From positions 1-48,299 of the forward strand of contig CALDYY010000025.1 in NCBI GenBank assembly GCA_937944245.1: a stretch of DNA of 48,299 nt, written 5' to 3'. How positions within the stretch are numbered: position 1 is the first letter of the stretch; every line of letters begins with the position of its first letter. Below are positions 35,898 through 48,299 of this stretch, piece after piece. Position numbers and translations under genes: made by a program. The notes under the pieces were generated by a model. The model did no database searches. It saw only the letters and a list, made by a program, of their open reading frames with translations, and was not told where the DNA came from. The stretch is from an uncultured Saprospiraceae bacterium (lineage in GTDB: Bacteria > Bacteroidota > Bacteroidia > Chitinophagales > Saprospiraceae).

Positions 35898-35928
35898 TTG
35901 GTAAGGTCAAAAATTGTCCTTACATTTG
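35898..35928 (+). promoter_or_regulatory. Promoter and candidate operator of the methyltransferase gene
   Basis: TTG (35898-35900), a 20-base spacer, TACATTTG (35921-35928), an exact TAnnTTTG, 23 bases before the start codon. A 23-base inverted repeat (35901-35923) with arms GTAAGGnCAA and TTGnCCTTAC fills the spacer, so binding there would block the promoter. Confidence 0.6.
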
Positions 35929-35951
35929 AATACTATAATTAGCTATTTTAA

Positions 35952-36698
35952 ATGGAACAAAAAGATTTATTTGGCAACGTAATTCAATTAAACGGACACC
36001 AAAAGGTCGTTTCAGGTTACAGGATTTATGATGCTGAACAGAAACGTAGAACGAAGAGAAATGATCTTCCAAGTCTATATCCTGATTTACCAGAAGAAAA
36101 GTACGATATCATTTATGCAGATCCGCCTTGGGATTATGGAGGCAAAATGCAATTTGATAAGAGTGGACGCAAAGACGTAAATAGAAACTGGAAAAATAAT
36201 ATTTTTATAAGTGCAGCAAATTTCAAATACCCTACGCTCACTATTAAGGACATGATTAAAATTCCCATTCACGAAATAGCTAAAGAGGATTGCCTACTGT
36301 TTATGTGGGTAACAAATCCGCATTTAGCGCAAGGTATTGAGTTGGGGAAATCTTGGGGGTTTGATTACAGAACAGTAGCTTTTGTTTGGGATAAAATGAA
36401 CCACAATCCAGGGCAATACACATTATCATACTGCGAACTCTGCCTAGTATTTAAAAGAGGACGTATCCCAACACCAAGGGGTGCAAGAAATATAAAGCAA
36501 TTAGTACGAGTACCTAGAGGTGAACATAGTCAGAAACCGATAGAAGTACTTCACAATATTGAAAAAATGTTTCCCACTCAAAAAAGGATTGAATTATTTG
36601 CACGACACAAGCCCGAAAGTTGGGACGTTTGGGGACTTGACGTTAGAGAAGAGTATGAAGACGGTACTAATCTAAAAGAGGTTTTATCTTCTCAATAA
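35952..36698 (+). CDS. MT-A70-family adenine-N6 DNA methyltransferase (MunI-like modification enzyme)
   Basis: A 248-residue methyltransferase of the MT-A70 family. The catalytic motif IV is DPPW (57-60, in IIYADPPWDYGG). The cofactor-binding segments are LLFMWVTNPHLAQGIELGKSWGF and the C-terminal SQKPIEVLHNIEKMFP...RIELFARH. Methyltransferases of this group methylate adenine N6. The convergent gene is a MunI-family nuclease, and the known modification partner of MunI is also an adenine-N6 MT-A70 enzyme for CAATTG, so this is the cognate modification gene. Its 3' end overlaps the nuclease gene by 32 bases on the opposite strand. Confidence 0.87.
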   Translation: MEQKDLFGNVIQLNGHQKVVSGYRIYDAEQKRRTKRNDLPSLYPDLPEEKYDIIYADPPWDYGGKMQFDKSGRKDVNRNWKNNIFISAANFKYPTLTIKDMIKIPIHEIAKEDCLLFMWVTNPHLAQGIELGKSWGFDYRTVAFVWDKMNHNPGQYTLSYCELCLVFKRGRIPTPRGARNIKQLVRVPRGEHSQKPIEVLHNIEKMFPTQKRIELFARHKPESWDVWGLDVREEYEDGTNLKEVLSSQ

Positions 36699-37266
36699 AA
36701 TGTTCAACTAATTGCTCAGTATCAGATGTGTCTCTCCAAAAGAAAAAATGTGCGTCTAAATTATCATACCAACAAGTGATTTCCCTTACACGACAGGGGT
36801 CTCGTGTAATGTCCCCTTGGAAAACAGTCCAAAAAGGAAGCACATCTTCACCGAGATTACCTGCTTTCTTTAGTATTTTCTGTAAGCCTGGTGTAAAGAA
36901 TTTGCAAGAACGTTCATGGGCATTTCCCCGACCCGCTGAACGTGATTTTCCCTCAACCCATCCGTCTTGCCGTTTAACTTCAATATAAATAGTTTTATTC
37001 GTTTCTGTATTTGTTATTGCATAATCAGGGTAAACGCCATGTTTCTTTATTTCAATATCAGGAACGTATATCTCATCTAAATCCTTTTGACTTAAAGGGA
37101 AATTAACATAAATTTCACTAAATTCTTTTGGCTGGGATATTATTTTATATTCAGTGTTTTCAAATAGTTTCGAAAAAGTTTTGTAAAAACTTTGTTCAGC
37201 AATACTAGCGTTACTCACGCTATAATCTTGCCATTTTCTTCTAAGTCTGTTTGCACTACTCCCCAC
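36667..37266 (-). CDS. MunI-family type II restriction endonuclease
   Basis: A 199-residue nuclease. From memory it aligns with MunI through its length: PDYAI..TE (Pro80, Asp81), the catalytic EVKRQDGWVEGK (Glu96, Lys98), SAGRGNAHERSCKFFTPGL, and LPFWTVFQGDITRDPCRVREITCWYD. These are the PD-(D/E)xK residues and the recognition segment of the MunI/EcoRI-like fold, so the predicted site is CAATTG. I choose GTG 37266 because it gives the MunI-like start MGSSAN; TTG 37272 is also open. It overlaps the upstream C-protein gene by 11 bases, which suggests translational coupling, and overlaps the methyltransferase tail on the other strand. CAATTG occurs in the window (for example 600-605, 2836-2841, 2907-2912), so protection by methylation is expected. 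Confidence 0.9.
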   Translation of the reverse strand: MGSSANRLRRKWQDYSVSNASIAEQSFYKTFSKLFENTEYKIISQPKEFSEIYVNFPLSQKDLDEIYVPDIEIKKHGVYPDYAITNTETNKTIYIEVKRQDGWVEGKSRSAGRGNAHERSCKFFTPGLQKILKKAGNLGEDVLPFWTVFQGDITRDPCRVREITCWYDNLDAHFFFWRDTSDTEQLVEHFIEKIKPLLD

Positions 37267-37483
37267 TGTCAAACTTTAGTAAGTGGTCAATACTTGTATC
37301 CAAAGCATTTGCAATTTTTTCAATGTTAATAAGAGTTATATTTTTTTCGGCACGCTCTATCATTCCAATATATGTCCTATGTAAGTTAGCTTTAAAAGAA
37401 AGCTCTTCCTGTGAAAGACTTTTTTCTTTCCTTAGTAGCCTTACCCTCTGTCCGAATTTTGCTAAAATCGCTCTATTCTCCAT
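37256..37483 (-). CDS. Controller (C) protein, XRE-type helix-turn-helix regulator
   Basis: A 75-residue DNA-binding protein. Residues about 8-65 form a lambda-repressor-like domain (FGQRVRLLRKEKSLSQEELSFKANLHRTYIGMIERAEKNITLINIEKIANALD). The helix-turn-helix is LSQEELSFKANLHRTYIGMIER. Such small XRE proteins next to type II systems are C proteins that delay nuclease expression after entry to a new host. It is co-transcribed with the nuclease gene and overlaps its start. Its own promoter carries a strong inverted repeat that is a natural site for autoregulation. Confidence 0.88.
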   Translation of the reverse strand: MENRAILAKFGQRVRLLRKEKSLSQEELSFKANLHRTYIGMIERAEKNITLINIEKIANALDTSIDHLLKFDSGE

Positions 37484-37502
37484 TCAATAAATTATACTAC
37501 TA

Positions 37503-37548
37503 CAAAGCTAATTCTAGTATGCAACTTATGCAACATACTAGAATTAGC
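37503..37548 (-). promoter_or_regulatory. C-gene promoter within a perfect 15-bp inverted repeat
   Basis: On the minus strand, TTG (37533-37531), a 20-base spacer, TAGCTTTG (37510-37503), an exact TAnnTTTG. The arms GCTAATTCTAGTATG (37507-37521) and CATACTAGAATTAGC (37534-37548) are perfect complements. A direct repeat ATGCAAC lies at 37519-37525 and again at 37528-37534. The structure could be a C-protein operator, a hairpin ending the giant gene's transcript, or both. Confidence 0.6.
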
Positions 37549-37610: not shown

Positions 37611-40600
37611 TTACTCCAACACAATCATTTTCTTAGTAGCGATAAAGCCATCCGCAGCAATGGTATAATACAATACACCACTTGCTAAATGCTGACGGTC
37701 AATTTCTATAATGTTTTGTCCTTTATGGAATTGGTCTGCTTTTCTATAAATCACTCGACCACTCACATCGTGAATTGTCAATTCAGCACGCATATGACTT
37801 GGCAAGTCAAATGTAATGTTCGTTTTATCCTTGAATGGATTCGGTATGTTTTGATACAACTGGAAGCCGCTCGCAACTGGTGTTTGGAAGTTTAGCTTCA
37901 AGTCAAATAATGTTCCATTCACATCATAAGCCTCTGACAAGGTGCGCGTAGAACTAATGCTCAACGCATTTTCCAGTACCACTGGCTGTTGATTGCGGAA
38001 GACCAAACTTACCATTCTACCTTTGCTTTGCTCACCATTCCAACTTACAGTAACTGCTCCTTCTTTCTCAAATACTCCAATTTGGCTATAATGTACTGCC
38101 CCGTCCAGTATATTTACCAACTCAAGTTGTGGATTATCATAGTTTAAGGTAAATTGATAGCCGCTTAACTCATGCTCCATGTCAAGATGAACAATGATTG
38201 TTCCATCTTTTTCAACACGCTCTTCTACTGCTTTCACCTCCAATACTTTTTGGAAGTTTCTACCCTCTACAAGGCTTGAATTAGGTATGGCTGAACCATT
38301 AATATCACCTACTTTGATAGCGACAAAGTTCAAATCTAACTTATTTGCTTCCAAGTCATTAATATTCATTACTTCTGGGAAGTTCTCTGCAAATGGATTT
38401 TCTGGATTCTGGAAAACATAATCCGCAGGAATGAATCGCCAGCTTGTATTGTTGGTCAACGCTTGGTCAATCGTCAAAATCAATCGTCGCAGTAGCACCA
38501 TGTCCATCGTAGTAATAGAACCTGAATTGTTGATATCTGCTGCAATTATTTTGTAAGGTGAATCCAACGGTTGTACATTCAAAATATGCTTGGAAATCAG
38601 CACTAAATCGAATGTAGAAATACCGTTCAAGTGGTCATCATCCTTGTATGGTGTCAAAGAATAATCGTAACCTTTTTCCAAGTTGTAAACGCCGTAAGTA
38701 CCTGTTGCACTTGTTCGAGTAGTTGCCAAAGCAGCACCCGAAACTTGTACTTCAGCATTTTCTACCCCGTCATTTGCTTCCGTAGCAATCGTTCCTGCAA
38801 GTGCAGCACCTTGCGTTGGATTCACACATGGATTTTCCGTAAATTCATCACTTTCTGATCCAAGAATACTGACAAATGTTTCACAGAAAGCCGCATTGCC
38901 CGCAGCGTCTCTCGCCCAAAGTTGAACGGGTACAACCCCCAATTCTCCGTTCACACAGGTAAATGTTCTTACGGTAGAATCTGGATAAATAGATGGGTCG
39001 GCAAAAGTCAAGGTTACATCAGAACAGAAGTCAAATGAGCCTTTATCAAACCAATCGGCAGCGATACTTATTGCACCATTTGGCATTGCGCGCGTGGAAA
39101 GTCCAAAAATACACTTAGGCGTTGGCGCTTTGCAATCCACAACTTGGAATGGCACTTCTAGCTCCGTTGTATTGCGGCAAGCATCTTGCGCTTTTAGCAC
39201 AAAAGTATGCGTCGTCGTTGTTCCACCTTGCTGAATTGGATAATTTCCTGTGATGCGGTAACGTCCTTCGCCTAAATCTTCTAATTTGCCGAATGGGTCG
39301 TTTATTGCATCTCTATTAAATGGTTTGAGTTGATAGGACAACGTCAACTTATCCACTACCTCACATAAATCATCCAATGTGAAAGTGATGTCCACAGGCG
39401 CAGTGCAAACATTCCCTCTTGGCTCTTCATCGCCACCGCAGAATGCTTCAAAAGGTTCTACCTCAATCGTTGGTGGTGTTACGTCAATAATTCGGATAAT
39501 TTGACGATATAGGAAGTTGCCATATTCTTGCGCACTCACATAATTTCGCATGATACCAAACTCGTCCGTTCCTCGATACGTTTTAGTAATCCTTGCGGTG
39601 TCGGCATTGTCAATCAATACAAAATCACCATCGAAACCAATATTTAAATCCGTGCGATAAGGGTCACCATCCGTTCTGTCGTCAATATCGTTAATGCCGT
39701 CTCTTCCCAATGGACTGATGATAACACCATCTCTAGTTTCTAGACCTTGTATGAAACTTGTGTTGATGTACCTATCGGTGTAGCCCAAGAATACTTGACG
39801 TGTCAATAAACTATCTGGACGCTGCACCACAGCAATTTCTGTGTTGGCAGGATTCCATGTACACCAGTTGATGAAGTGATAGGTATGCACAATTTGATAA
39901 CAAGCAGCTTCAGAGGCTTCAAATCGCTTAGTTTCTACATTCATTGCCCAGTGATCGCAACCATTGTTGAATTGTAAGATACCTCTACTCGCCCGAACTG
40001 GGTCAATAAATTGCGTTGGCTCGATTCTTCTTGGCGTAATTCTCTCTGTGCAGAAAATTAAATCATCTAACGGGAATGCCATGCTCCAGTCATGGAAGTC
40101 ATTATCCACTGTAATTTTTAATTCTTGTGGTAAAGAAACATTACCGCAAGCATCCACCAACTGGAATACAATAGATAGGCTTCCACCTAAACAAGTTTTA
40201 TCGAAATTATTGGATTGCAATTTATCTACTATTAATCGAGCATTATCGCAATTATCCCCTTCAGCAAGTAAATATTTAGCACTAGCTGGATCAGTAAACT
40301 CACCCGCAGTATTGAACAATCGCTGAATCGCTTCATTTGGATTAGCAGCACTCAATGCCTCTGCAATGCGTGTAGTTAGCGTATCCAAACAAGTCAATTC
40401 AATATCTTTCTTTTTCGCTACTGGCGGAATTTTATCTTGCAATTCCACTTCTACCATGCAGTAATTATAATTGCCATGTCCATCTTCCACTCGGAACACA
40501 ACCATCTGCGTACCTATGCAGCCCTTTATATCCGCTTTCGTGAACTTCACTGATTTTCTAAACAAGGCTTCGTCCCCGTTGAAGAAAATATTATTTCTTT

Positions 40601-43600
40601 CTGAAGACTCCCCAAATAAGAAGCCTGCTGCATTTAACTCGTCCATTCTTGCCACAGTGAAGGTTACTTGACCGCAGTTGTCGTAAGAACCATCATCAAA
40701 CGATTCTGCTGGAATTTCTACTTCACATTCTAAGCCCATAGCAACTGCTCTAAATTTTTCACAGATAGCTACTGGTGGAATTTTGTCTTCAACAAATGCG
40801 TTATACTCAGGTGAGATAAATTCATTTTTGCAGTCATCTATCAAACGAATAGTGTATGTAAATGCCTGATTAATAGGCAATTTAGTTACTCTGTATTTAC
40901 CGCTTCCAGTAAGTCCTGAAAGATTAATTGCAAATTCTTGCTCTGCTCCACGATTAATGCTCAAGAAGGCTTTAACATTACCTGAACAATCATCTTTTAC
41001 TTCAATGTTGATGAAGCCATCAGCAGTACAATCATGGAAGCCACCTAAGCCTGTTACCTCAAAAGGATGCTCTGGTAGTTTTAATTCAGGTGCTTTGCTA
41101 TCGCCTACTTTTACAATTTGCGGAATAACACCAATTAATTCCAAATGTCCATCGCACCAGTTATACACCGTCCATTCGCGGAAGATTTTGTAGGATTTCT
41201 CACAAGTAGGGATTCTATTGCCATCTTTCCAATCAATGGCATAGCCACATGCTGCATGGAAATCACCACTTATGAAAGCAGGTACTTCATCGCCGCTGCC
41301 GTTAGTGAATAATGCACTGGCTAATAAATCTGCTGGGTTCACCACCACACCTGCACCACTGCCTGTGTTGAGCGGTGTTGGGTCGAAGTTCGGAATCATT
41401 GCACCATAAGCTGCAAATTTTGCTGGATTGGAAGCCCATTTTTCAAAAATAGCTAATGGACTTGGGTCGTCGTCGCATTCCAGTTCGATTTCTGGCATTG
41501 GCGCTTTTATGTCTGGCTGGACAATAGTAATGATTTGGAATAAAGTATTGGATTCATTCCCACATTTATCCACTGCTTGAATAGCGCGCACAAAAGTCTT
41601 GAACCTTGCAGGGCGACCAGTGAATGGCGCTTCTTCAATTTCCTTATTCAGAACAGCAGCTAAGACATCAAGGGCGTTTATAATACCAGAGGCATCCAAC
41701 TGACGAATGGCTTGATTAATATCAAATCTATCTTCGGTGCAGGTAAATTCTATCATTTGCCATTTGCTCCATGCAAAGTGAGCATTACAGTTTTCGTGAA
41801 TTTCAAAAACATCACTCAAGGCAGGAATAGTAATCGTTCTTGCGTAACCACTTGCACCAATTCTATCTGGTGTATTGGCGCGAATAGCACGACTAGGGAA
41901 CAATTTAATGTTTTTAACTACATCCGTCATCGTGTTTAACTCCGTCAACAATCGGTCTGTGTCGTAGTAGCACTCAACGAAAATTTCGTCAGATTGACCT
42001 TTTAACACAGGCGGTACTTTGTCTTCAATGACAATTTTACCCCAGCAAGCATCTTCAAAGGCTTTGCCACCACATGGTGCAGGAATAGTGCGTGTAACTT
42101 TCACATCAAGCAGTGTACCGCAATCCACAGCGGAAAAGTCAACGATTGGGTAACCTTCAACGGTTTCTCCAATTTTATTCACATTCGGATTGGTAAAGAA
42201 GATATCATACTTTGTCCCGTTGATGTGGCAAGGATTTTCTAGCAATAAATCAGGAGTCAGAATAACTACGCAATCGTTGGTTAAACTGATGCTTACTCTA
42301 TTGTTGCAAGCCAACTGCTTAGGATAAATATTGATAGTCGTTTCGCACTTAATATCTGGATAATTTGGATCGCTGAAAATAATCGTATGCGTGCCTACTG
42401 GCAAATTGTTGATGGTTACTTTGTTATTTGCCAAATCAGGCGTAAAACTTGGAATAGTACAAGTGCCTAAGTTGATGCTTGGCACTTTTTTCACGCTGCA
42501 ATCTATATAGACTGGCATATCAATGACTAAACTATTCACTGCATTACAGTCGTCCGCTTGAAGGATGTAGTTTCTGCGTGTTGGACAAACAAAAGAGCGA
42601 TTTCTAGGGGTACAACTTACTGCTGCTTCCCAGCCTTGACCGTTGTTGCCATCGCCATTTTTTGTAAATTCAAATGTGATACAGCCACTTCTATTCAAGC
42701 AAGAGGCTTCTACTTCGCCGCCATTAGGCGCATTTCCAACACCTCGTCCTGCACCTGTGCCTAATATCGCACCTGCTAAGTTCTCGCCATCGTATGCTAT
42801 TAATTGGTCGCCAACTGCCACATCAAATAAAGTAAATACTACTTTAACTTGCTGATTAGCTGGGTCTGTTGGGCAAATGGTTACTATGTTGCTAGATGCT
42901 ACATTATCAATGTAAGCAAACAACGGACCGCCTTCATCAAAGAAACCCGTATTTTTTCCGCAATCTATTTTGTAGTTCAAATTAGTAGCACCCGTTGGCA
43001 TCGTAATACCGTTCGTGCAAGCCACATTATAGTTGCATAAATTGCTGGCAGAAAGTACATCTGTTCCATTGGTAACTGTAATTTGATACCCAATATTTTC
43101 TAAATGCAAGCCTCTCAAAATATAAATACCTGAACCTACTGGCATTTCTACTAAAGCATCCCCTGTTGCAACAGGATTCAATGGGTAGCGCACTCCACTA
43201 GCTGGCGGGAACACCCCTAATGGTGCTTTGAATAAGCCTACTACACTTTGTACTGTCCAAGTTTCACCTGGTGCAGCATACACTGTAATTTCTTCCGCTA
43301 ATTGACCATCTAGCACATTTGGTGCGCTTCGGTTATCCAAGCAATTACAAGGGTCGGTAATGGAAATATCGCGAACGATAACCGCAAACTCACAAACTCC
43401 TTCATTGCCCGCTTCATCTACCGCAAAGTATTGGACTAAGGTGTAACCCAATTTAGCTAAAAAGTCAGGGTCAAGATTGTTGCTTAATTTTAGTTTATCC
43501 TGTGGCGTGCAATTATCTGTGAATATAGGTGGTGTCCAAGTTACGATACCACCTTGTCTATAAAAGTCATTTGCGTTGGTGATGATAATGTCTTTAGGAC

Positions 43601-46600
43601 AATTTGTTGTGATTGGTGCTTCTTTATCTTCTACCGTTACGGTGAAACTACAAGATGCAGCGTTGTTGTACCTGTCAGTTACGGTGTAAGTTACCGTCGT
43701 TATTCCCACGTTAAAGACTACTCCACTTGCATCACCTTTGCCACTCACTTGAGTTGCCCCTGTGGTAACATAAGTAATACTTGGGTTGGCGTCGCAATTA
43801 TCATTCACATCCTTTAAGGAAATGCCCATCACTGGTGCGTCGCAACTCTGAGGAGCGTTACTCAACACAACATTTGCTGGACAAGTGAAGGTCGGTGCTT
43901 CTGTATCAGGCAAAGTTTCAATAAAGGCGGTTGTCATTGCTGTGCAACTTGTAATGCCTATTGCCATGACTACAATATCGTAAGTACCTCCATCCAAATT
44001 AGCAAATGAATTACTAGATTGGAAAGTTTTTCCACCGTCAATCGAATATTCTAATGTCCCGCTAGGGAAATTCGCAAAAATCTGAATAGAACCATTATCG
44101 TTGTCTGGGCAGGTTTCTCTAGTCGTATTTACTCTAGTAATCGTTACGGCTGGACCAACTGGCAGCGTTGCTTTAACTTCCTGCTGACAATTTTCTAAGA
44201 ATTGTACTTTTATCAAAATAGTATATTCTCCTGGAGCTAATCCTTCAAAAGTAGATTCATTTTGGAAAGTTTTCCCTCCATCAATCGAATATTGAATCGG
44301 TAGAGTAGCCTTTGCAGATACAGTAATTTTACCATCGTTTGTACCTGCACATAATTCTGGTGTAGTTGTTGATTCACCAACGATGAGGTCGCAAGTCAAG
44401 CAGCCATTATCATGTTTCCCAAACCCTTCAAAGTTTGCTAATCCTACACTTTCCCACTCAATCGGTGAAGCGAAGAAGGCATCTGTCGGGTTGTTGTCTC
44501 CTTTTTGAACAGTCGCTAATCTTCTGATAACATTGTTTTTAGTGCTTACTGCACCTTCTATCCAACCATCAACGCCAGGATTTTCCCCTATCTTGCCAAT
44601 CACGTCTAAAATAACGTTGCCAACACCGCCTTTCCAAAGAATAATAACATCGTTACCGTCAAATAGCAAGTTGGCAGTTGCGTTGGCTGCACTATTTAAA
44701 GTGGTATTTGTTGCACCTTGATTAACAATCACAAAAGTTGCGTTCGGGTTGAGTGTACCTGAAAGCGGAATGGTTACATTCGGACTATTGAAATTGCCAT
44801 TTCCGTTAGCATAAATCGCAATCGTGTATTGGTCTGTTGCTAAATTAATCACATTGGTCGTTGGATTGTATAGCTCTAGTGCTTTGTTATTGCCTTCTGA
44901 TTGTTCTGCATATTCTGAAATCAACACAGTTTGACAATTTTCCAAAATATTGCAACCAAATGGTGCATTGCCTGCCTCCACATTGCGCAAGACGCAAATT
45001 GGATTGTCAGAGAAAATAGCAGAAATGGTGTAAGCACGACCATCGGCTGGCAATACAACCTTAAAGGTATGGCTTGTTGAACTATCTAAGTTGGCTACAT
45101 CCACCGAAGCAGCTACATCGCCGAATAAACTTAACTTGCCTGATGTTGGTGCATCTATAAAATTAACGGTGATAAGTGCAGTAAATTCGTCATCTAATGG
45201 CGTTGGCGTTCCTTTGTCATCACAATCACCTTTTTCTAGTGCAATACTTTCTAGCAAACAAGTAGATGAATTGGTACAATCATCTGCATCAATGGCAATA
45301 TTTAAAATTTGCCAGATACTTGTTTGACCTGCTAGACCATTCGATACATATTGAACTCCAATATAAAAAGCTCCCTCAATGTTAGACAAATCAATTTGTG
45401 CATTTGGGTCTGGATCATCAAATGTTCTTAATTCAATCCAAGTTGCATTTTGAACTGATTGTGCCGTGTGGAAACCATCATAGTCATTGGAGTAGAAAAA
45501 TTTTAACGGTGAGCCGTTGAAGTTCTCTCTGATTTCAGCAGACAAACTTACGAAACTAGCTTTGTCGTAAAGTAGTGCATTGGACACCAACCAAAGGTCG
45601 CTTAAACACTCTGTTCCACAGAAGCCATTAGCCGAGTAGAACCCATCGGAACAAATCCAATTATCGCCATCTCTATTCAAGGTTACTGGCACAATATTGA
45701 AGAAATCGCAATCGCCTGTTACACAACGAGGACAAACTTGTGCTCTACCTGAAATGGATATATTGCATACCTTTTCTGTACCTTCCGTAATAGTGATTCC
45801 CCATGCTCTACCTTCCAAAACAGTGATAATGATTGTTCCATCTGCCACTTGAGCTGGGTTGTCGCCTGAAATTGTGCCTTCGCCAGTATTTGTTAATATT
45901 GCTCCAGCATCAATACCTTTATATTTTATTCTAATTTCCACTAAGTCGTTTAATCCAGTCGTTTCGGTCAAACAAACTTGTGTAACGTCTTCAATTTCAA
46001 CACCGCAAGCTGGTGGAAGTCGGTTTACACTACCATTTGTATTAAAACCATCTGTTGATACCCAAACACCATCTATTAACTGAAGCGAGCTACCTACCGA
46101 TACCCCTCCTTGTGCTACCCCAATATCTACGCTTTGTACACCATCTGCGATACCACCTACACCTACAAAATCCCCTTCATAGCTCAAAAATTCAATTAAG
46201 CCACATGGACTTCCTAGTGCAATACCATCAGGTGAACCATTCTGAAGTCCATTCACTGGCAAGTTCCAAACGTAGTAACTACCTAAATCATCGCTAGTAA
46301 CGGCAATAGCTGTATTCGCTAAGTTAATGCTATTATAAGGTGTTCCATTGCCTCCATTATAGAGTACAATCGTGTAATCACTTAAATTGGTGGGTTGAGG
46401 GTTCTCAATGAATATTTCCACAAATTCCCCAATATCTTCCCCAACATTGTCATAATGAAACTCATTAATTCTAGCAGTTGCTTGTGCGCATGGTTCACAA
46501 ATTTTAGCCGTACCCGAAACGGTTAAATTACAATCGCCATTGTTGTCATTGATAGCGATGAACCACATTTCACCTTCTAGTAAGGTAATCGTAATGATAC

Positions 46601-48299
46601 CGTTTGCCTTAGTGGCAGGATCATCTCCACCGATTGTACCTGCTCCGTTACTTACGACAAAGGCATCCGGCTTAATACCATTATAAGGTATGCTTACAAT
46701 AATTTTATCATCAGAAGCATCTGTTTCTGATTGGCATTCCTCTCTCGGTGTGCCAAATGTAAGTGGGCATGGAGAACACTCACTTACGTGCTTACCTAAA
46801 TCTTCGATGTTGTTGATGACATATCCGTCCCATTCATCCGCAGGATTAAACGCGTCACTCAGATTAGTGTCCCCTTTCTTAATGCCAAATTTTCGACGCA
46901 ATGTATTGTCCGCTGTCGAGGTTAAGCCACTACCCCATTCTGTGCCTGGGTTATTCCCTACCTGTCCTATAACGTCCAACACTTGAGTCCCCTTTTTTAA
47001 CACTATCGCATCATTACCGTTGAAGTTCATGATACCTGCTGTAATCAAGAGGTTCGCTATACCCGTTATTGCTGGATCTGCTGAGTTGTTCGCAATTACA
47101 TATGTCCCATAAGCCGGTATTTCCGCCGTGCCTGAAACCGTACTAAAATTAAAGGTACTACCCGCTGTTGTGTTTCCATTAAAATACACCTCTATTAAGT
47201 ATCCACCTGCTTTTAAGTCTATTACTGTATTGGTTGGATTGAACAGTTCCAGTGCTTTGTTATTACTCGAACCTTCCACGTACTCTGAAATAAAGACATC
47301 TTCGCAATTACCTAATAAAGGATCAACACAGGACTTAGCTGTTCCAGAAGCAATTAAATTACAACCATTTCCTATTAAGGTAATAGCCCACATTTGCCCC
47401 TCATCTAAGGTAATAGTGATTGTTCCGTTGGCAACTGTTGCTGGGTTATCGCCTCCTATTCTGCCTGCCCCTGTACTTGCCAATACTGCATTCGCATTTA
47501 TTCCCGTGTAAGGGATGCTCACCACTACTTGGTCTGTGTTTATTGTTTCTGTAACACATGATTCCGTAGCCATACCTAATACTATGCCACATTCTTGAAC
47601 TGCTACTGGCGTACAATCGTCTGCCTGTATTTTGACGTTGCTAATTCTCCAACGAGAGTAATTAGCGTTATCCACATATCTAAACCCTATGTAAAATCCT
47701 GATAAGTCGCTAATAGCAGAAAGGTCTATATCCTCATTTCCAGGTGTATTAGTGTTTCCTGCTGTCGGTCCTATCAGCGTCTTTAAATTGTTCCATGTCG
47801 CTTGGTTTGGATTACCAGTACCTGCATAATTCACTGACCACAATACTTCTAAGTCTGTTTGGTCAAATGCTTCTTGTGTGTTAAATAGTAATTTGATAAC
47901 TTTAGCATTACCAAAATTAAATTTAGGCGATGTCAACCAATATTCCACTTGACCTGATGCCCCGCTATTGAAAGCATTTAACTGATAATTCTGAAATTGC
48001 TCACTCCATGCGCCTGTTGACGTTGAGTTGGTCGCATTTTGTACTACAAAGTTGTTGAAGTTACCACTATCTACAAAACAATCATTCAATGCAACTACTG
48101 GGTCACATGCTCTTGCCGTACCACTTAAAGCTAAATCACACAAACCACCCATCAGCGTTATCCCCCATGACTGTCCTTCGTCTAAAGTGATGGTGATTAC
48201 CCCATTAGCAACCATCGCTGGATTGTCGCCACCTAGTGTACCCGCTCCTGTGCTGGTCAGCACTGCACTGGCATTCGTGCCTGTGTAGGGAATGCTCAC
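37611..48299 (-). CDS. Giant T9SS surface protein (HYR, SprB, lamin-tail, CUB, dockerin-like), 5' partial
   Basis: The last 3562 codons of a gene that continues beyond the right edge; the first codon in the window is GTG inside a repeat, not a start. N- to C-terminal order: four copies of an unrecognised module (about 48101-48299, 47325-47595, 46490-46772, 45720-46010), separated by adhesin-like jelly-roll segments (47628-48090, 45270-45715) and lamin-tail domains (46775-47310, 46020-46480). A third lamin-tail domain follows (44395-44950), then two SprB repeats (43900-44395, each with YSIDGGKTFQ), HYR domains (43350-43910), a CUB-like domain (42590-43015) and a long array of HYR/PKD-like segments (PPVAICEKF, PPVAKKKDI, PPTIEVEPF). 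The end has a carboxypeptidase-regulatory-like domain, a dockerin-like pair (38470-38650, DINNSGSITTMDMVLL), a cohesin-like strand domain (37965-38240) and a T9SS sorting domain (IPNPFKDKTNITF). Probably an adhesin or gliding/sheath protein; the exact role is unknown. Confidence 0.88.
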   Translation of the reverse strand: MSIPYTGTNASAVLTSTGAGTLGGDNPAMVANGVITITLDEGQSWGITLMGGLCDLALSGTARACDPVVALNDCFVDSGNFNNFVVQNATNSTSTGAWSEQFQNYQLNAFNSGASGQVEYWLTSPKFNFGNAKVIKLLFNTQEAFDQTDLEVLWSVNYAGTGNPNQATWNNLKTLIGPTAGNTNTPGNEDIDLSAISDLSGFYIGFRYVDNANYSRWRISNVKIQADDCTPVAVQECGIVLGMATESCVTETINTDQVVVSIPYTGINANAVLASTGAGRIGGDNPATVANGTITITLDEGQMWAITLIGNGCNLIASGTAKSCVDPLLGNCEDVFISEYVEGSSNNKALELFNPTNTVIDLKAGGYLIEVYFNGNTTAGSTFNFSTVSGTAEIPAYGTYVIANNSADPAITGIANLLITAGIMNFNGNDAIVLKKGTQVLDVIGQVGNNPGTEWGSGLTSTADNTLRRKFGIKKGDTNLSDAFNPADEWDGYVINNIEDLGKHVSECSPCPLTFGTPREECQSETDASDDKIIVSIPYNGIKPDAFVVSNGAGTIGGDDPATKANGIITITLLEGEMWFIAINDNNGDCNLTVSGTAKICEPCAQATARINEFHYDNVGEDIGEFVEIFIENPQPTNLSDYTIVLYNGGNGTPYNSINLANTAIAVTSDDLGSYYVWNLPVNGLQNGSPDGIALGSPCGLIEFLSYEGDFVGVGGIADGVQSVDIGVAQGGVSVGSSLQLIDGVWVSTDGFNTNGSVNRLPPACGVEIEDVTQVCLTETTGLNDLVEIRIKYKGIDAGAILTNTGEGTISGDNPAQVADGTIIITVLEGRAWGITITEGTEKVCNISISGRAQVCPRCVTGDCDFFNIVPVTLNRDGDNWICSDGFYSANGFCGTECLSDLWLVSNALLYDKASFVSLSAEIRENFNGSPLKFFYSNDYDGFHTAQSVQNATWIELRTFDDPDPNAQIDLSNIEGAFYIGVQYVSNGLAGQTSIWQILNIAIDADDCTNSSTCLLESIALEKGDCDDKGTPTPLDDEFTALITVNFIDAPTSGKLSLFGDVAASVDVANLDSSTSHTFKVVLPADGRAYTISAIFSDNPICVLRNVEAGNAPFGCNILENCQTVLISEYAEQSEGNNKALELYNPTTNVINLATDQYTIAIYANGNGNFNSPNVTIPLSGTLNPNATFVIVNQGATNTTLNSAANATANLLFDGNDVIILWKGGVGNVILDVIGKIGENPGVDGWIEGAVSTKNNVIRRLATVQKGDNNPTDAFFASPIEWESVGLANFEGFGKHDNGCLTCDLIVGESTTTPELCAGTNDGKITVSAKATLPIQYSIDGGKTFQNESTFEGLAPGEYTILIKVQFLENCQQEVKATLPVGPAVTITRVNTTRETCPDNDNGSIQIFANFPSGTLEYSIDGGKTFQSSNSFANLDGGTYDIVVMAIGITSCTAMTTAFIETLPDTEAPTFTCPANVVLSNAPQSCDAPVMGISLKDVNDNCDANPSITYVTTGATQVSGKGDASGVVFNVGITTVTYTVTDRYNNAASCSFTVTVEDKEAPITTNCPKDIIITNANDFYRQGGIVTWTPPIFTDNCTPQDKLKLSNNLDPDFLAKLGYTLVQYFAVDEAGNEGVCEFAVIVRDISITDPCNCLDNRSAPNVLDGQLAEEITVYAAPGETWTVQSVVGLFKAPLGVFPPASGVRYPLNPVATGDALVEMPVGSGIYILRGLHLENIGYQITVTNGTDVLSASNLCNYNVACTNGITMPTGATNLNYKIDCGKNTGFFDEGGPLFAYIDNVASSNIVTICPTDPANQQVKVVFTLFDVAVGDQLIAYDGENLAGAILGTGAGRGVGNAPNGGEVEASCLNRSGCITFEFTKNGDGNNGQGWEAAVSCTPRNRSFVCPTRRNYILQADDCNAVNSLVIDMPVYIDCSVKKVPSINLGTCTIPSFTPDLANNKVTINNLPVGTHTIIFSDPNYPDIKCETTINIYPKQLACNNRVSISLTNDCVVILTPDLLLENPCHINGTKYDIFFTNPNVNKIGETVEGYPIVDFSAVDCGTLLDVKVTRTIPAPCGGKAFEDACWGKIVIEDKVPPVLKGQSDEIFVECYYDTDRLLTELNTMTDVVKNIKLFPSRAIRANTPDRIGASGYARTITIPALSDVFEIHENCNAHFAWSKWQMIEFTCTEDRFDINQAIRQLDASGIINALDVLAAVLNKEIEEAPFTGRPARFKTFVRAIQAVDKCGNESNTLFQIITIVQPDIKAPMPEIELECDDDPSPLAIFEKWASNPAKFAAYGAMIPNFDPTPLNTGSGAGVVVNPADLLASALFTNGSGDEVPAFISGDFHAACGYAIDWKDGNRIPTCEKSYKIFREWTVYNWCDGHLELIGVIPQIVKVGDSKAPELKLPEHPFEVTGLGGFHDCTADGFINIEVKDDCSGNVKAFLSINRGAEQEFAINLSGLTGSGKYRVTKLPINQAFTYTIRLIDDCKNEFISPEYNAFVEDKIPPVAICEKFRAVAMGLECEVEIPAESFDDGSYDNCGQVTFTVARMDELNAAGFLFGESSERNNIFFNGDEALFRKSVKFTKADIKGCIGTQMVVFRVEDGHGNYNYCMVEVELQDKIPPVAKKKDIELTCLDTLTTRIAEALSAANPNEAIQRLFNTAGEFTDPASAKYLLAEGDNCDNARLIVDKLQSNNFDKTCLGGSLSIVFQLVDACGNVSLPQELKITVDNDFHDWSMAFPLDDLIFCTERITPRRIEPTQFIDPVRASRGILQFNNGCDHWAMNVETKRFEASEAACYQIVHTYHFINWCTWNPANTEIAVVQRPDSLLTRQVFLGYTDRYINTSFIQGLETRDGVIISPLGRDGINDIDDRTDGDPYRTDLNIGFDGDFVLIDNADTARITKTYRGTDEFGIMRNYVSAQEYGNFLYRQIIRIIDVTPPTIEVEPFEAFCGGDEEPRGNVCTAPVDITFTLDDLCEVVDKLTLSYQLKPFNRDAINDPFGKLEDLGEGRYRITGNYPIQQGGTTTTHTFVLKAQDACRNTTELEVPFQVVDCKAPTPKCIFGLSTRAMPNGAISIAADWFDKGSFDFCSDVTLTFADPSIYPDSTVRTFTCVNGELGVVPVQLWARDAAGNAAFCETFVSILGSESDEFTENPCVNPTQGAALAGTIATEANDGVENAEVQVSGAALATTRTSATGTYGVYNLEKGYDYSLTPYKDDDHLNGISTFDLVLISKHILNVQPLDSPYKIIAADINNSGSITTMDMVLLRRLILTIDQALTNNTSWRFIPADYVFQNPENPFAENFPEVMNINDLEANKLDLNFVAIKVGDINGSAIPNSSLVEGRNFQKVLEVKAVEERVEKDGTIIVHLDMEHELSGYQFTLNYDNPQLELVNILDGAVHYSQIGVFEKEGAVTVSWNGEQSKGRMVSLVFRNQQPVVLENALSISSTRTLSEAYDVNGTLFDLKLNFQTPVASGFQLYQNIPNPFKDKTNITFDLPSHMRAELTIHDVSGRVIYRKADQFHKGQNIIEIDRQHLASGVLYYTIAADGFIATKKMIVLE
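38470..38650 (-). other. Dockerin-like calcium-binding pair in the giant protein
   Basis: Two type I dockerin-like loops are visible: DDDHLNGISTFDLVLISKHIL and ADINNSGSITTMDMVLLRRLI. Both have the D/N-rich loop followed by a helix. In this group such pairs often precede the T9SS domain; whether they bind a partner cohesin is not known. Confidence 0.7.
45720..46010 (-). repeat. Repeat module, copy 4
   Basis: The most diverged copy: IRIKYKGIDAGAILTNTGEG, GDNPAQVADGTIIITVLEG, then CNISISGRAQVC. It keeps the GDNPA core and the final cysteine pair. Confidence 0.75.
46490..46772 (-). repeat. Repeat module, copy 3
   Basis: VSIPYNGIKPDAFVVSNGAG, GGDDPATKANGIITITLLEG, then CNLTVSGTAKIC. It is flanked by lamin-tail domains on both sides. 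Confidence 0.8.
47325..47595 (-). repeat. Repeat module, copy 2
   Basis: VSIPYTGINANAVLASTGAG, GGDNPATVANGTITITLDEG, then CNLIASGTAKSC. Very close to copy 1 in both protein and DNA. Confidence 0.85.
48101..48299 (-). repeat. Repeat module, copy 1 (cut by the window edge)
   Basis: VSIPYTGTNASAVLTSTGAG, GGDNPAMVANGVITITLDEG, then CDLALSGTARAC. Its beginning lies beyond the right edge. Confidence 0.85.

Follow-up and report, generated by a model that had tools for sequence, protein, structure and literature searches.

The nearest worked example of the regulation proposed here is the Esp1396I restriction-modification (R-M) system, whose controller protein, C.Esp1396I, is described as binding three operators before the methyltransferase and endonuclease genes (PMC3758141). 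These operators are named OL, OR and OM in the account that accompanies structure 4i6r of C.Esp1396I, in which R46 is reported to contact the G, and T36 the C, of a GTC in the box (PMC4041747). The description of the C.Csp231I class gives the operator as CTAAG-N5-CTTAG, with two operators separated by a wide gap, and places the sites of the classical class about 4 bp apart (PMC4321490). HsdC of Mycoplasma gallisepticum, likewise called the C-protein of an R-M system, is reported to have a direct-repeat operator, (GTGTTAN5)2 (PMC5282649). With regard to the host, promoter differences are described as preventing the expression of E. coli genes in Bacteroidetes and of Bacteroidetes genes in E. 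coli, and the same source gives TTTG/TANNTTTG as the Bacteroidetes promoter consensus, describing the -33 element as much less evident (PMC6847099).

The window, by which we mean the whole 48,299-nt stretch analysed, carries a cassette of three tightly packed genes, namely M on the forward strand (35952-36698, 248 aa), and R (36667-37266, 199 aa from a GTG start) and C (37256-37483, 75 aa) on the reverse strand. By their ORF coordinates the 3' ends of M and R share 32 nt, and C and R overlap by 11 nt when R is counted from GTG 37266. The separate R and M genes, side by side, have the layout of a Type II R-M system. The original prediction had assigned the three ORFs to an MT-A70 methyltransferase, a MunI nuclease and an XRE controller; they were found at the positions it gave, and Pfam searches confirmed the families. 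The borders it had drawn (35898-37533) held for the genes but not at the right edge, where the distal operator OL (37534-37548) falls just outside. We consider it very probable that the cassette is a horizontally acquired Type II R-M system of the MunI family equipped with a controller, its cutting and regulation being read from the families to which its proteins belong. The cassette itself is ordinary, a small defence cassette of a known kind. Its GC content (34-38% in windows) carries no composition signature when set against the 37.7% of a genome sample of 424,721 bases (20 contig stretches and the window). A sigma70 scan of the cassette returned six sites compared with 7.4 expected in shuffles, and a scan for terminator-like sites within it found none. 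To its right, a 3562-aa ORF (37611-48299) runs to the window end; the C-terminal 399 residues of this ORF include a type IX secretion sorting domain (Por_Secre_tail, 8.2e-12), together with dockerin- and cohesin-like matches.

R was matched to PF11407 (RestrictionMunI) at 2.3e-83 with 279.1 bits (cut-off 25) over positions 1-190 of the 193-position profile, and the MunI structure (PDB 1d02) matched it by phmmer at 1.2e-61, with 51% identity (99 identical residues of 193 aligned). These matches bear out the earlier claim of a MunI-family nuclease, of the PD-(D/E)xK type. The reading frame is open to TTG 37272 (36667-37272, 201 aa), and GTG 37266 appears the more likely start because the residue-3 column is Met in 55 of the 57 relatives having a residue there. 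With the GTG start, the residues previously numbered D81, E96 and K98 become MunI D83, E98 and K100, and R thus has P82, D83, E98 and K100, the P-D…E-x-K catalytic residues, in MunI numbering. The triad, whose loss the original prediction had named as decisive against it, is retained in alignment with MunI and with 74 relatives, D83 being present in 73 (one has Glu) and P82, E98 and K100 each in all 74. The 1d02 chain has Ala at position 83, where the window R has Asp; we take 1d02 to be a crystallised active-site mutant. R115 was kept in 74 of 74 relatives and R121 in 73 of 74 in an alignment of the matched segments, and the RGNAHER segment with its surroundings is nearly invariant among them and identical in MunI. 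The nuclease of the MunI system therefore shares with R the Pfam family, the triad and the RGNAHER segment, although it is only half identical.

M was matched to Pfam MT-A70 (PF05063) at 3.6e-22 and showed distant similarity to MT-A70/METTL3-type structures (best phmmer match, 4.7e-9), in agreement with its previous assignment as an MT-A70-type adenine methyltransferase. Its catalytic motif, DPPW, is read from the sequence at residues 57-60. M.MunI is presumably an MT-A70 relative as well. Relatives of M occur on 15 viral contigs (L123-L137), with 32-72% identity over the best segment, and R is also present in only two of the 15 within the stretches examined; the other 13 look like stand-alone MT-A70 methyltransferases and are perhaps phage anti-restriction genes.

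C was matched to Pfam HTH_3 at 6.6e-15, and the solved structures nearest to it by phmmer are C.AhdI (1.1e-15) and C.BclI (1.6e-14), followed by 3clc, an 'R-M controller protein' (7.3e-10), whose group includes 4i6r. Thus C is a small HTH protein, homologous to known C-proteins, which lies upstream of R and has conserved operators before its own gene (two sites with two mismatches each), and the claim of a small XRE controller is sustained. By sequence, C.Esp1396I, C.AhdI and C.BclI belong to the same protein family as the window C, and an R-T-Y in the recognition helix is common to them all. No recognisable C.Csp231I name occurred among the 15 structures matched by C at E 0.001.

A 15-bp operator core, GCTAACTATAGTATG, is common to the sequences upstream of C and M and, in our reading, sits inside an 18-bp near-dyad, TGCnnACTATAGTnnGCA. 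Two copies lie before C/R, OL (37534-37548, reverse strand) and the inverted OR (37507-37521, reverse strand), and one, OM (35929-35943, forward strand), lies before M, each with two mismatches to GCTAACTATAGTATG. None of 200 letter shuffles equalled the match at either the C or the M promoter, and three of the four sites with at most two mismatches in the 424.7 kb own-genome sample are the cassette operators themselves. These operators are interwoven with predicted promoters of the Bacteroidota type, TTG-N20-TAGCTTTG for C and TTG-N20-TACATTTG for M. At the C/R promoter the predicted -33 TTG (37531-37533, reverse strand) adjoins the edge of OL and stands 20 nt from the predicted -7 box TAGCTTTG (37503-37510, reverse strand, at OL+38), which OR overlaps, and before M the predicted -33 TTG (35898-35900, forward strand) stands 20 nt from the predicted -7 box TACATTTG (35921-35928, forward strand), with OM directly behind it.

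As in the account of Esp1396I, operators are thus found before both C/R and M, but where the Esp1396I operator has TATAGTC that of the window reads TATAGTATG. The core starts of OL and OR are 27 nt apart, leaving the cores themselves 12 nt apart, in contrast to the spacing of about 4 bp reported for the classical class (PMC4321490). The wide gap recalls the C.Csp231I class as described, although the operator sequence of that class, like the direct repeat given for HsdC, is unlike that of the window. The best match before the window C to a classical GACTTATAGTC-type C-box had five mismatches, scored against GTTACTTATARTCCG and not the literal GACTTATAGTC. The classical C-box defines one class of C-proteins, not all. 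Among all loci examined, window included, the core, with three mismatches or fewer, occurs in 23 of 56 promoters of C and in 16 of 64 of M, whereas divergent-type loci mostly carry a box like GTTACTTATARTCCG, resembling the classical one. The second operator before C varies in position across loci (offsets 16, 27, 38 and 46-48). One viral contig (L118) has all three genes together with operator-like sites (at most two mismatches) before C and before M. No paper describing this operator was seen among the literature matches listed on MunI and controller proteins. Sorokin 2009 is reportedly the leading compilation of C-protein motifs. This may be an undescribed class of operator, yet it could already stand in Sorokin 2009 or in the MunI structure paper.

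Operator type goes with a single residue of the controller. Residue 47 of C is Lys, and in an ungapped alignment, with the numbering set by the adjacent T-Y pair, it would correspond to Arg46 of C.Esp1396I. Across 56 loci, which are related and do not represent 56 independent events, this residue is Lys in 32, Arg in 23 and His in one. When operators were typed at up to four mismatches, the closer match winning, 28 of the 32 Lys47 loci had the new core (GCTAACTATAGTATG) and four had neither type, while 20 of the 23 Arg47 loci had a classical-like box and three had neither; the His47 locus has a classical-like box. No Lys47 locus was scored as classical-like and no Arg47 locus as carrying the new core. 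At three loci (L004, L007 and L009) R and M closely resemble those of the window, yet the controller is of the Arg47 type and the new core is lacking, which suggests that controller and operators were replaced together, as if a module had been swapped.

In the scheme we propose, M would methylate adenine in the recognition site, taken to be CAATTG, and R would cut unmethylated invading DNA there, with C acting as a dimeric controller that times expression. M, having a complete predicted promoter of the host type, would be made first on entry; C would then accumulate, bind OL upstream of the C/R promoter and switch on C and R, and at higher levels would also occupy OR, over the C/R -7 box, and OM, over the M start region, limiting both. 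The nuclease is probably controller-activated and the methyltransferase controller-repressed. Families, catalytic residues and operator positions come from the sequence, and activation, repression, timing, dimer state and cutting are assigned by family. The weakest part of the scheme is the repression assigned to OR, because the position of the second operator varies between loci.

A pattern-prefiltered scan of public genome contigs from 84,980 species returned the 74 nuclease loci related to R (43-73% identical), in hosts labelled in their records as Bacteroidota, Chlorobi relatives, Firmicutes, Proteobacteria, Patescibacteria, archaea and others. M was found at 71 of these loci, C at 58 and all three genes at 57. 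Of the 71 loci with M, 70 carry it on the strand opposite to R: it is convergent at 35 loci that have C and at 13 that do not, and it diverges from C-R at 22. At the one other locus M is on the same strand. Some of the contigs on which C was not detected end near the gene, which perhaps explains some of the C-less loci. Stops were seen, among loci with all three ORFs resolved, in the best-matching stretch of R at L008 (one) and L028 (two) and of M at L005 and L073 (one each), and some cassettes may be decaying. Viral contigs held five nuclease loci and 15 methyltransferase loci, phage records gave one partial, unannotated nuclease match, and a search of plasmids for nuclease relatives found none.

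Horizontal entry, which the original prediction had suggested, is supported though not proved. PF11407 occurs in one of 60 related genomes searched, in the own genome only and in none of the 59 others. The best identities to public loci reach 73% for R, 82% for M and 81% for C; a Tannerella locus encodes an R with 71% identity to that of the window, and Prevotellaceae and Thermochlorobacteriaceae loci an M with 82%, and the C match in a Chitinophagales genome may come from near kin of the own genome. The neighbouring DUF1015 gene, however, is only 38-39% identical in two genomes of the same genus and 38-58% identical, in four pieces, in a third, and this contrast with the cassette genes supports entry from outside. 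When an empty site was sought, DUF1015 relatives were present in 17 of 20 genomes, own included, and neither the flanking UvrD-like helicase nor the C-terminal 400 residues of the giant protein had a match in 19 short DUF1015 loci (2.5-4.1 kb) from 16 other genomes.

As regards the recognition site, we infer CAATTG as the site of cutting and of m6A from the MunI family. The genome sample contains 111 CAATTG sites compared with 210.8 expected (0.53), and the window alone contains 10 compared with 28.2 expected by shuffling. By z-score CAATTG stands 13th of 2058 hexamer classes (z -6.9), but by observed/expected ratio it ranks only 33rd of 64 palindromes, 32 being more depleted. GAATTC, at 19 sites compared with 124.3 expected (0.15), is one of these. 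Site avoidance was rejected as support for CAATTG, the depletion being real but not specific. Strong depletion extends to many 6-bp palindromes in the genome sample, including GTATAC (1 versus 43.6), GGTACC (4 versus 65.9) and ATGCAT (12 versus 93.3).

Promoter type was compared with host group, as labelled in the records, by setting FCB hosts (Bacteroidota, Kapaibacteria and Chlorobi) against the rest, on the understanding that bins may be misassigned. Of 75 loci, the window among them, 52 were counted, with the 22 of divergent type and L057 set aside, and from these 52 only promoters with a core of at most four mismatches entered, giving 28 C and 20 M promoters; L034 and L035, identical in R and M, are both counted, and viral contigs lie outside the counts. 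Exact TAnnTTTG at OL+37 to +39 was found in 17 of 19 FCB C promoters and in none of nine others (Fisher 8e-6, a value that overstates independence because host groups are clustered on the tree described below). At OL+38 it was present in 15 of the 19, accounting for 15 of the 20 exact occurrences over 110 offsets around OL. A TATAAT-like hexamer (at most two mismatches) stood at OL+38 in eight of the nine other C promoters against three of 19 FCB ones, and six of the nine had it with at most one mismatch; a further TATAAT-like hexamer at offset 6 in eight of nine is the operator core itself. Directly after OL, TTG was found in 15 of 19 FCB and one of nine other C promoters, and TAG in two of 19 and eight of nine, respectively. 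M promoters followed suit, with TAnnTTTG (at most one mismatch) immediately preceding the operator in all 11 FCB promoters and one of nine others, and TTG 23 nt before a TATAC-starting operator in six of nine others and none of 11 FCB. In hosts that are not of the Bacteroidota type, the same operator carries a sigma70-like TATACT. The distance from OL to the -7 or -10 box is 38 nt in either promoter type, and by counting the centre of OL would lie near -43 from the predicted start in both. This agreement between host group and promoter type is suggestive, hinting at a fit to the host transcription machinery. At L048, assigned by binning to Staphylococcus, OL is followed by a TTG of the Bacteroidota kind, but neither type of box is present. 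L015 and L017, in proteobacterial bins, have TAG after OL and TATTGT or TATAAT at +38; before M, L015 retains a box that differs from TAnnTTTG at one position.

Two other explanations of the cassette itself were considered. The small HTH protein could be an unrelated XRE repressor that happens to lie beside R; all 14 of its NCBIfam matches are indeed to other XRE or unrelated families and fall below their cut-offs, and 16 of the 74 relative loci lack a detectable C. Against this, all 57 three-gene loci have C ahead of R on the R strand, the solved structures that match C best are those of C.AhdI and C.BclI, C and M are preceded by the same operator, and residue 47 tracks the operator type, so that we regard an unrelated repressor as highly improbable and retain C as the controller of the cassette. 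Somewhat less remote, but still unlikely, is a MunI-family system whose site has drifted from CAATTG, for example to another NAATTN site, as might be envisaged from the 51% identity to MunI and the stronger depletion of GAATTC. The near-invariance of the RGNAHER segment across the 74 relatives and its identity in MunI argue otherwise, as does the high z-score rank of CAATTG, and the depletion of GAATTC, being common to many palindromes, needs no link to the window R.

The agreement between promoter and host is harder to interpret. It could reflect shared ancestry only, each cassette lineage having remained within a single kind of host without being refitted when transferred, and we put this at little short of an even chance. 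On a quick tree of R and M (57 rows, SH-aLRT support only) the host groups are strongly clustered, and independent host-differing pairs number only three for C and two for M (sign test p 0.25 and 0.5), with at most three independent host switches, one of them well placed. The switch of L015 and L017 is not secure, since the combined and R trees place them among FCB loci and the M tree (support 57) puts them beside other hosts, and L048, with its TTG and neither box, fits shared ancestry too. On the other hand, promoter type goes with host in 2.8 of three pairs (C) and 1.6 of two (M) on average, never against it, and in 200 random pairings no pair ran opposite to host, though some showed no difference. 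The well-placed switch is L049, a Chitinophagaceae locus with a PorT/SprT neighbour of the type IX secretion system (5.5e-57), whose clade in the combined tree includes 12 loci from other phyla (13 rows, 99). The clades that hold it in the M and R trees contain 17 others (18 rows, 97) and seven others (8 rows, 92), respectively, and yet L049 carries Bacteroidota-type boxes at both promoters. In the alternative reading, which we advance tentatively and with some doubt, MunI-type cassettes would cross the sigma-factor barrier between Bacteroidota and other phyla by keeping one controller operator as a scaffold and rebuilding only the fused promoter element; the rebuilt element would, on the same tentative footing, be TAnnTTTG for the Bacteroidota sigma factor and TATACT for sigma70. 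The insecure placement of two of the switching loci reduces our confidence in it, and the placement of L015 and L017, the M box of L015 and L048 count against refitting or blur it.

If refitting is true, a single controller could, with its spacing unchanged, activate two dissimilar RNA polymerases. Cassettes of this kind occur in many phyla and need correct gene timing on arrival, despite the promoter barrier. With one operator found in combination with both promoter types, the survival of a toxic, timed gene set across such jumps becomes directly testable.
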